A DNA stretch of 64,000 nt from positions 20,410,671-20,474,670 of the forward strand of contig NC_049987.1 of the NCBI RefSeq assembly GCF_000003815.2, written 5' to 3'. Positions 35,101 through 38,100 of this stretch are shown in pieces. This DNA comes from Branchiostoma floridae (lineage: Eukaryota > Chordata > Leptocardii > Amphioxiformes > Branchiostomatidae). Every line of letters begins with the position of its first letter. The stretch's first letter is position 1. Position numbers and translations under genes: made by a program. Under the pieces are notes generated by a model, which was not told the DNA's origin, ran no database searches, and saw nothing but the letters and a program-made list of their open reading frames with translations.

Positions 35101-38100
35101 AAGAATTCCAAAGAAAGTTCTGTAAAGTTTCTCAGTACCATAATCAAAACAGTAATTTTCTGTAGGTCTTACCTGATCAAACGCAGGGAAGATATAGTCT
35201 GCGAACTGTATCTCAGCGATGGCTGTAGCGCCCATCACCATATAATCACAAATACAACATTGATTCTACTATAAGTCTTGCCTGATCGAACGCAGGGAAG
35301 ATATAGTCTGCGAACTGTATCTCAGCGATGGCTGTAGCGCCCATAACCATATAGTCACAAATACAACATTAATTTTGCTATAGGTCTTACCTGATCGAAC
35401 GCAGAGAAGATCGATGTAATCTGCGAACTGTATCTCAGCGATGGCTATAGTGGCTATCACCATATAGTCACATATACAACATTATTTTTGCTATAGGTCT
35501 TACCTGATCAAACGCAGGGAAGATATAATCTGCGAACTGTATTTCAGCGATGGCTGTAGCGCCCATAACCATATCATCACAAATACAACATTAATTTTGC
35601 TATAAGTCTTACCTGATCAAACGCTGGGAAGATATAGTCTGCGAACTGTATCTCAGAGATGGCTGTAGCGCCCATCACCATATAGTCACAAACACTATAG
35701 TCATTTTCATATAAGTCTTACCTGATCAAAGGCAGGGAAGATATAGTCTGCGAACTGTATCTCAGCGATGGCTGTAGCACCCATAACTGCCATGCCGATC
35801 CCAAACCCAGCAATGCCCTGCTCACACAGAGGCGTGTTGAACACTCTGTCCTTGCCTGGCACATCAATGGGCAATATCAATCAATCAACCAATCAATTCT
35901 GTACTCTGTGTATCTATATAGTCGGTATAACTGCCCTTCGGCATACACCAGCTGGAGCACACAAACAAGTGATCAATAAATCAATCCTAAATAAAACCAA
36001 TGAAATATCCATAAATAAATCAAATGATCAATCAATCCTACCTAAAACTAATGAAATATCAATAGTTCACCAATCAATTATCATCTTTTATCAAAATCTA
36101 TGAAGATGTAGGAAATATCAATCAATACAGCAGCAAACAAGCAACAATCAATCTTTATCGACCTCAAGGGAAACCAAGAAAACACTAGAAAGACAACATT
36201 TTTGCAAAAAATAGTAGTACATCTCACTGAAAAAAGGGGTTGAACATGTCAAACAACTGTTTTCCCAGTTAGATGTATTGAATTGTTCTGCCAGTTCATT
36301 CTAGTAATGCTACAACAGAGTGAAGGATGTCATTTGAAATGTCCGGAAGTAAATCCCTGAATTCTATCCAGTTGTAGATATTAAACTACCAGTATTCTTT
36401 AACTGGATGTATAAGCTTCATAAACATATGAACGATATATCATTAATCGTTCAATATTCAAGCAGCCATCATTCTTTTCCCAGAAAAATTGAAAGTTTTT
36501 TCATATTTTCCCTTCCATCAGAACATTTTCCAGCAAATAATCCATCAGAGTTATACAATTCTCTCTCAAGTCTAGACTTTACATGCTGGCAACTGCCTTT
36601 AAAAAATAATTAGTAACTGAGTATGTCCGATGCAGTTCAAATAAAAACCATTCTGTTTTTTTCATCAAGACCTATCCAATGACATCAAGTTCAAAATATA
36701 TGGAGAATTTGGCTACGTATGGAACTTTCCGGCACTTGGGACATAGCACCCCCCCCCCCCCCGAGACAACACATTTAGCTCCTGCAACTAAAACAACAGG
36801 AGCTAATTGACTCATTTGCATTAACTGTGTCTTAGCCTTTTTTTCACATTGAAATCCAAAATTGTCTTCAGCTTGACTTTGCCTTGCTTTTGTTGCTATT
36901 GGAATCCAAATTGTCTTTAGCTTGACTTTGTCTAACAATGTCTCCTGTTGGACATCTAAAATTGTCTTCATTTATAGTTAGGGTATAAAAGGATCAGATC
37001 TTCCATATCTCTTCAGTGTCACTGACGAAAGATGGTGGATACCATCTGAAATGTCTGACCGTTTCCAAAATCATATCCAGTTGCTTGAGTAAAGTTCTGC
37101 TTTTTGGCATATCTTATTACCTGGACGTCTAACCTACATCAACGTATGGAGAATTTGAATTTCTTGTATCACACCCCTCATCAGACAGTGAAGAGGAACT
37201 TTATTGCACGACAATTGTATGTGATACAATGTATGGCATCAACTATAACACTAAGTACAAAACAATCATACCCAGCAGGTGGGTGGGTACAGTGTACCAG
37301 ATCTATCCTGACATTTGGATAAGAACCCAAGTGAGCCACTGGGCTCCTGGCAAGTCATGGAACTTAGGTCTGGGAAAATCAAAATTGTGTTTCTTATAAT
37401 GGATCTGACAAAACGAGGGTCAGATCAGACGGTCGAGATTTTATTTTCTTCCTTTTAAAGAGGTGATCCAACAACTAAAATGGAAAACTGATATGAATCA
37501 GGACACTGAAATATTCAACAGACATGTAGTACTACAAGTGCAGGTCTATCATAATCAATAAACTGATGAAAGAAGTACAATCTTTACAGTTTATTACACA
37601 TTTTTGCATCAGTTATTTAAAGCTGTAATCTGCTAAAAGAGTGTGAAATACCGGTACAGAAAGTCTGCTTTGAATTCCATCCCTCAAAATGTTGGATCAA
37701 AAATTGTATGTCTCTTGCCAGCAGTAGACTATAAAAAGAGCTAAAGTTGGCAGGTTTTTGCTAGGGTCAGTCGGGTAACAGGAAAAAACAATTTTCTTTC
37801 TTTGACCTTATTGTAAGGCCATGCCATGTCAATCTTCTTGGGTCTGAGAATTTAAAAGAATGAATATGATGCTAATCAGGAGTGAAAATAGAGTCTGGGG
37901 GCTGGAATCTGACTTTATTCACTCCCTGAATTGAAATAAACTGTTGGCAGTTGGCACAATACTCCATAGCATAAACCTGGTCCCTAAAGTCTTTCTATTG
38001 TTGCCAAGGAAGCTGGGAAAACGATGGACTCTTTGAACCCCTTTCTTCTTCCATACTCCGCATCTCAGGAGGAAGTTCCAAATCAAAAGCTTCCAACCTA

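Follow-up and report, generated by a model that had tools for sequence, protein, structure and literature searches.

A tandem array of exon-end copies behind exon 4 of amphioxus BCKDHB, a further example of the mirage type of repeat

Amphioxus genes are known to contain tandem repeats that lie across an exon-intron boundary, and these have been called mirages (PMC3087553). That paper describes mirages in the globin genes BflGb6 and BflGb9 and cites Adh3 and other loci. The 5' and 3' boundaries are both open to duplication, and the AG and GT signals are kept in many of the repeats. Mirage lengths are unstable, at Adh3 even somatically, and data on Adh3 together with RT-PCR on the globins suggest that regular splicing is undisturbed (PMC3087553). 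A second paper describes repeats of 60 and 108 bp over splice sites of lancelet PGBD5 and adds TnC as a mirage case (PMC3902484).

Here we consider an array of this kind behind exon 4 of the gene BCKDHB in Branchiostoma floridae. The array lies in an amphioxus gene, and each of its six units runs across an exon-intron boundary (about 66 nt of exon, a donor and about 43 nt of intron). With a unit of 109-113 bp it is of minisatellite size, the published range being 10-160 bp. It is a further example of an already published type of repeat. Among the titles and abstract openings listed in a literature search, none dealt with mirages in BCKDHB or with synonymous bias in mirage copies; most subscription papers lay outside that search, so this is weak evidence of absence.

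The array, its gene and mirages elsewhere

The window, that is, the whole stretch of 64,000 nucleotides that was analysed (C9:20410671-20474670), holds BCKDHB on its minus strand. Eight coding pieces match human BCKDHB in order (tblastn) and a first exon was spotted by eye, nine exons being mapped in total; the gene looks intact. The joined translation of exons 4 and 5 matches human BCKDHB in PDB with E = 3e-55. The intron before exon 4 (intron 3) spans about 4.4 kb, and the one after it (intron 4) about 0.85 kb. The coordinates are collected in Table 1. Between exons 5 and 6, on the strand of the gene, there is also a 5S rRNA-like sequence (window 31290-31405, minus strand; Rfam RF00001, 51.1 bits with a gathering threshold of 38).

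Table 1. BCKDHB exons discussed here and the copies of their ends (window positions; S:N, synonymous to non-synonymous changes against the real exon; the slash marks the splice site)
Feature	Positions	Strand	Evidence and details
Exon 4, real exon, 134 nt	35722..35855	-	AG before 35855, GT after 35722; translation matches human BCKDHB
Mirage array of six roughly 109-nt units, counting the real exon end as the first	35148..35787	-	Tandem Repeats Finder and spacings
Exon-end copy 1, GT donor	35613..35678	-	66 nt aligned to exon 4, S:N 4:1; TCAG/GTAAGAC
Exon-end copy 2, GT donor	35504..35569	-	66 nt aligned to exon 4, S:N 4:0
Exon-end copy 3, decayed, 4-nt insertion, GT donor	35391..35460	-	56 nt aligned, S:N 3:3
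Exon-end copy 4, GC donor	35282..35347	-	66 nt aligned, S:N 3:0; TCAG/GCAAGAC
Exon-end copy 5, GT donor	35173..35238	-	66 nt aligned to exon 4, S:N 3:0
Exon 5, common acceptor exon	34711..34869	-	tblastn; acceptor CTCAG/ATTG
Exon 7 (our own count)	27768..27976	-	tblastn; boundaries
Exon 7 3'-end copy with GT donor, 179 nt downstream	27589..27664	-	copy of the exon end
Exon 7 5'-end copy with AG acceptor, 169 nt upstream	28103..28145	-	copy of the exon end

A first-pass annotation, made from the letters of the DNA, had placed five extra copies of the exon's 3' end, each with a donor, behind exon 4. Tandem Repeats Finder bears this out, returning the array with a period of 109, 5.8 copies, 88% matches and a score of 971, as do the start-to-start spacings of the units (109, 109, 113, 109 and 109 nt), which agree with the unit length of 109-113 bp given before. 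The repeat unit is made up of the last 66 nt or so of exon 4, the donor and about 43 nt of intron; the first-pass annotation had given about 60 bp of exon and 45 bp of intron. Five of the six units, the real one included, have the donor TCAG/GTAAGAC, and the unit at 35282 has TCAG/GCAAGAC, so the count of four GT donors and one GC donor among the extra copies was also right. At 35722, 35613, 35504, 35391, 35282 and 35173 stand the final exonic bases of the six units, and the donor dinucleotide (GT or GC) starts one base lower. Comparison of the window with itself gave E = 0.0 for the array, far beyond chance. A DNA search of the whole genome with the array (513,431,437 bases in 431 contigs) returned a single place, the array itself. 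The units differ among themselves in their exon and intron parts, with intron divergence of up to about 20%, and the insertion in copy 3 shifts its frame.

How exceptional is such a structure? Two further exon-edge duplications, which the first-pass annotation lacked, are found in BCKDHB itself, one at each end of exon 7. Other genes were surveyed in 19 regions (140,316 bases). Together these contain 67 matches to the profiles of the chaperonin and Transket_pyr families; 60 come from one search and seven of eight from another, BCKDHB's own being excluded. Mirages were found at the donor and at the acceptor of an exon of TKT (exon A, the gene name coming from a PDB match of this exon), at the donor of a gene which from its sequence we take to be CCT6, and at the acceptor of another CCT gene (region L043). 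Outside the surveyed matches, TKT exon B, which from its strand and neighbourhood would belong to the same gene as exon A, has a donor and an acceptor mirage too. Mirages at both ends are thus present in three exons (BCKDHB 7, TKT A and TKT B). Such double-sided mirages look commoner than independent hits would give.

Seven of nine globin matches were also examined. One of them (region L064) has a duplication of an exon 3' boundary shifted by 157 bp, the length published for exon 2 of BflGb9 (PMC3087553), which accords with the assignment to B. floridae. Five had no local duplication at the threshold used, and the seventh (region L063) has an array that stops short of the matched exon. The mirage published for BflGb6 was found in none of these seven.

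We then have to ask how often a duplication would be expected at an exon end. Local direct duplications were counted at a shift under 2 kb and a blastn E no higher than 1e-6. They take up 6.4% of the 121,588 non-exonic bases that lie outside the window, and 7.0% inside it, and duplications of the size of a mirage unit are common in the non-coding DNA of the genome. Exon edges showed no enrichment: 7 of 150 have a duplication, against 6.45% of non-exonic bases (p = 0.50). By locus, the figures are 4 of 134 outside the window (three by script, one by eye) and 3 of 16 in BCKDHB, the latter above background, not significantly so (p = 0.08). The copy added by eye is a donor copy in region L047, below the script's criterion; TKT exon B is not among the counted matches. 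Among the 134 edges outside the window, some are ends of matches that lie in long open frames or that the profile trimmed, so that not all are splice sites, and the 16 of BCKDHB come from eight of its nine mapped exons, with the stop-codon end of the last exon included. With exon edges hit at the background rate, no special mechanism has to be invoked for mirages, which have the look of ordinary tandem duplications that happened to land on exon ends and were tolerated.

Very probably, then, the BCKDHB array is a mirage minisatellite, produced by local tandem duplication across the 3' end of exon 4 and tolerated, with the first donor in use. A duplication would have happened to straddle the exon end, and unequal exchange or slippage may have brought the array to six units. 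It could be tolerated since none of the extra donors comes before the original one; transcripts spliced at a later donor would carry an early stop and would be likely NMD targets. The array is probably harmless. The background rate at exon edges speaks for this, and so does the report that the Adh3 and globin mirages do not disturb splicing (PMC3087553). One observation would not be predicted if the copies were simply neutral, namely a synonymous bias in their differences from the exons, strong in TKT and weaker elsewhere.

Several other repeats were seen along the way. The window contains a minisatellite of eight 55-bp units with 93% matches (17101-17540), two units of about 120 bp that end some 45 nt before the apparent acceptor, at 55279, of an unnamed gene (54997-55234), and two arrays of 30-bp units (1027-1084 and 1593-1650) that are mutual reverse complements about 0.5 kb apart and are possibly the ends of a small mobile element. 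A run of N at 49191-49426 is a gap or a masked stretch. In a chaperonin gene region (L049, 4089-5029) there are about fourteen units of 67 bp, purely intronic as far as mapped.

Synonymous differences and a possible exchange with the exon

A speculative suggestion can be made regarding this bias. If the units and the real exon end swap places, by unequal crossover or by gene conversion, any unit may at some time come to serve as the exon end, and changes of amino acids would be purged from the whole array. We regard such exchange as possible and doubtful; it is an addition to the reading of the array as a tolerated mirage, not a contradiction of it. If correct, the intronic copies are a selected reservoir of synonymous variants of the exon. 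Should the bias hold throughout the genome, it would mean that exchange with the exon can preserve intronic repeats as protein code, which would matter for the evolutionary movement of exon ends and introns.

The evidence lies in the counts of distinct changes between copy and real exon. For neutral copies of a constrained exon, our own calculation gives an expected synonymous share of about 0.4 for copy-exon differences and about 0.25 on the copy's own branch (among the changes possible in the BCKDHB tail the share is 0.22, rising to 0.27 when transitions are weighted). The observed S:N values are 7:4, 1:2 and 4:3 in BCKDHB (exon 4 donor, exon 7 donor and exon 7 acceptor), 17:2, 13:3, 8:4 and 9:2 in TKT (A donor, A acceptor, B acceptor and B donor), 1:0 in CCT6 and 9:6 in the globin of region L064. 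Pooled over these nine edges, 69:26 is well above 0.4 (p = 1e-10), and changes private to one copy in the three multi-copy arrays, tallied by hand, stand at 23:10 (p = 9e-8 against 0.25). Differences are mostly synonymous, as exchange would have it.

A few choices enter these figures. The BCKDHB exon 4 count is 7:5 by a hand-made alignment and 7:4 by the aligner, and the pool uses the latter. For the globin, the BLAST-aligned repeat gives 9:3, and the value in the pool, 9:6, includes three bases before the repeat. The acceptor mirage of the other CCT gene contains too little exon sequence for a count.

Against exchange stands the uneven spread of the signal. Without TKT the pool falls to 22:15 (p = 0.013 against 0.4), and the private changes of BCKDHB exon 4 alone are 3:5, which is not significant; TKT therefore carries most of the synonymous signal. 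BCKDHB alone shows the bias only weakly. The exon 7 donor does not show it, and at exon 4 the bias is clear only without the decayed copy 3 (six of seven changes synonymous), an exclusion chosen after seeing the data. That a frameshifted copy persists in BCKDHB, and a copy with a 10-nt deletion in TKT, also argues against purging, and the deep divergence in the two-unit donor array of TKT exon B does not fit with a quick turnover.

Could the TKT differences have a more ordinary source? Relative to the exon, the three long copies at the donor of exon A show differences at 6 to 11 of their 22 to 24 or so synonymous sites, whereas synonymous diversity in B. floridae is given as 0.0397 (PMC12862219). 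Allelic variation seems too small to explain the bias. Even when 17 synonymous changes are removed to allow for allelic difference, p is still 2e-6 against 0.4. A TKT paralogue as the source of the differences was also considered and rejected: none was present among the best-scoring candidates of the genome search, which are six matches to TKT exon A and its donor array. Besides the array, these comprise three copies nearby on its contig, a 33-bp match on contig C14 and an ectopic 244-bp piece of the array at C5:24173230-24173473 (L060 2731-2974), about 4.6 kb downstream of the array. The ectopic piece is flanked by a perfect direct repeat of 31 bp, which gives it the look of an array fragment inserted at a new site, and its differences from the exon are synonymous only (S:N 7:0).

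A blind scan for three-base periodicity of mismatches over 203 repeat pairs in 61 records (344,386 bases; the records overlap) flagged TKT exons A and B and one pair in L043 (8 of 8); the latter reads as non-coding and is taken as chance.

The units of TKT are mosaic, which also points towards exchange. By the four-gamete test 10 of 21 pairs of sites are incompatible; the simulated mean was 1.1, and the observed value was reached in 13 of 1000 simulations. In BCKDHB the corresponding value is 7 of 10 pairs, which 96 of 1000 simulations reached and which is not significant.

Splice-site choice and its predicted consequences

Near-identical donors compete in splicing, and duplicated 5' splice sites have been a subject of older minigene work. 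The five GT donors of the BCKDHB array are identical over 11 nt, which leaves position or context to decide among them. Splicing at a later donor would lengthen exon 4 by 109, 218, 331, 440 or 549 nt, to 243, 352, 465, 574 or 683 nt, and after each of the five extra donors the added reading is VRLI followed by a stop, with TGA as the fifth added codon. These values, computed here, agree with the extensions and the stop claimed in the first-pass annotation. Use of any of the five extra donors would thus lead to a premature stop, as is the case for alternative 5' splice sites coupled to NMD, and mRNAs with an early stop are likely NMD targets. Because of this stop, the idea that the BCKDHB copies are translated as alternative ends is rejected; the 4-nt insertion in copy 3 speaks against it as well. 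(One TKT copy carries the 10-nt deletion mentioned above.)

Which donor is likely to be taken? In human data on donors of nearly the same strength, the upstream donor is favoured where the exon is the unit of definition and the downstream donor where the intron is; without the equalisation of strength, it was the downstream donor that came out ahead in all four classes of the same data (PMC9225289). An exon of 134 nt with introns of about 4.4 and 0.85 kb on its two sides would favour the first donor. A length of 0.85 kb is nothing extreme for intron 4, and intron definition would point to the last donor. To judge from these lengths, exon 4 is probably recognised as a unit by exon definition, with use of the first donor, the one nearest to its own acceptor.

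The first-pass annotation went further. Its anatomy, the competing donors and the premature stop hold, and its suggestion that the array could tune BCKDHB output finds no support. Such tuning would mean that a regulated share of transcripts uses the later donors and is destroyed by NMD. The TGA behind each of the five extra donors is what one would want for this purpose, and the full donor sequence is retained in four of the five extra copies. Yet among the extra copies drift has turned one donor into GC and one frame is shifted, duplications show no enrichment at exon ends, and the Adh3 and globin mirages are reported not to disturb splicing (PMC3087553). We consider tuning quite improbable.

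A still fainter chance may be given to the array as a step towards a new intron, in which copies are later recruited as exon ends and the repeats between them become intron. This model has been published for mirages and proposed for the amphioxus globins (PMC3087553), but in BCKDHB the conserved sequence is complete in the real exon, the protein needs none of the intronic copies, and the most pyrimidine-rich candidate acceptors in the array are the CAGs of the donor copies themselves. These CAGs, which precede GTAAG or GCAAG and have 70-75% pyrimidines in the 20 nt before AG, also led us to consider the copies as points of recursive splicing, an idea that was dropped, the intron being short and other support lacking.

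Least probable of all is an assembly artefact, in which wrongly joined haplotypes or repeats would only simulate an array. B. floridae is very heterozygous (PMC12862219), and the genome was read in a single assembly with gaps or masked runs, but there are six regularly spaced units with private variants and diverged introns. The differences among the units make a simple echo of assembly unlikely, and a mirage of published length is also present at the globin gene.

We thus return to the tolerated mirage as the preferred reading. Whatever its history, a row of six near-identical donors, spaced by about 109 nt and following an exon of a conserved enzyme, amounts to a natural experiment with duplicated splice sites. 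The genome has more such cases, so the positional choice of splice sites could be read off existing RNA data.

Comparison with described systems

The original Adh paper is reportedly that of Canestro from 2002. In the later account of PMC3087553, Adh3 and BflGb6 resemble BCKDHB in having multi-unit arrays at a boundary with splice signals retained in many units. The BflGb6 array is at the acceptor with units of 150-160 bp and the units of Adh3 measure 10-72 bp, whereas the BCKDHB array is at the donor with units of 109-113 bp. Length polymorphism is known for the arrays of Adh3 and BflGb6; the BCKDHB array is known here from one assembly.

BflGb9 of the same paper is similar in another respect, being a tandem copy of an exon 3' boundary with a GT donor. 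It has one extra copy of 157 bp, while BCKDHB, a different gene, has five extra copies of 109-113 bp. PGBD5 (PMC3902484) likewise has tandem repeats, imperfect and close in unit length to those of BCKDHB, with splice sites inside them; it is again another gene, with three units of 108 bp against six units in BCKDHB.

Outside amphioxus, the closest likeness is to experiments with duplicated 5' splice sites and to natural competing donors (PMC9225289), where donors are nearly equal and position decides between them, as would be the case here. Those systems consist of pairs of donors in human genes or in test constructs, while BCKDHB has six donors in a natural array.
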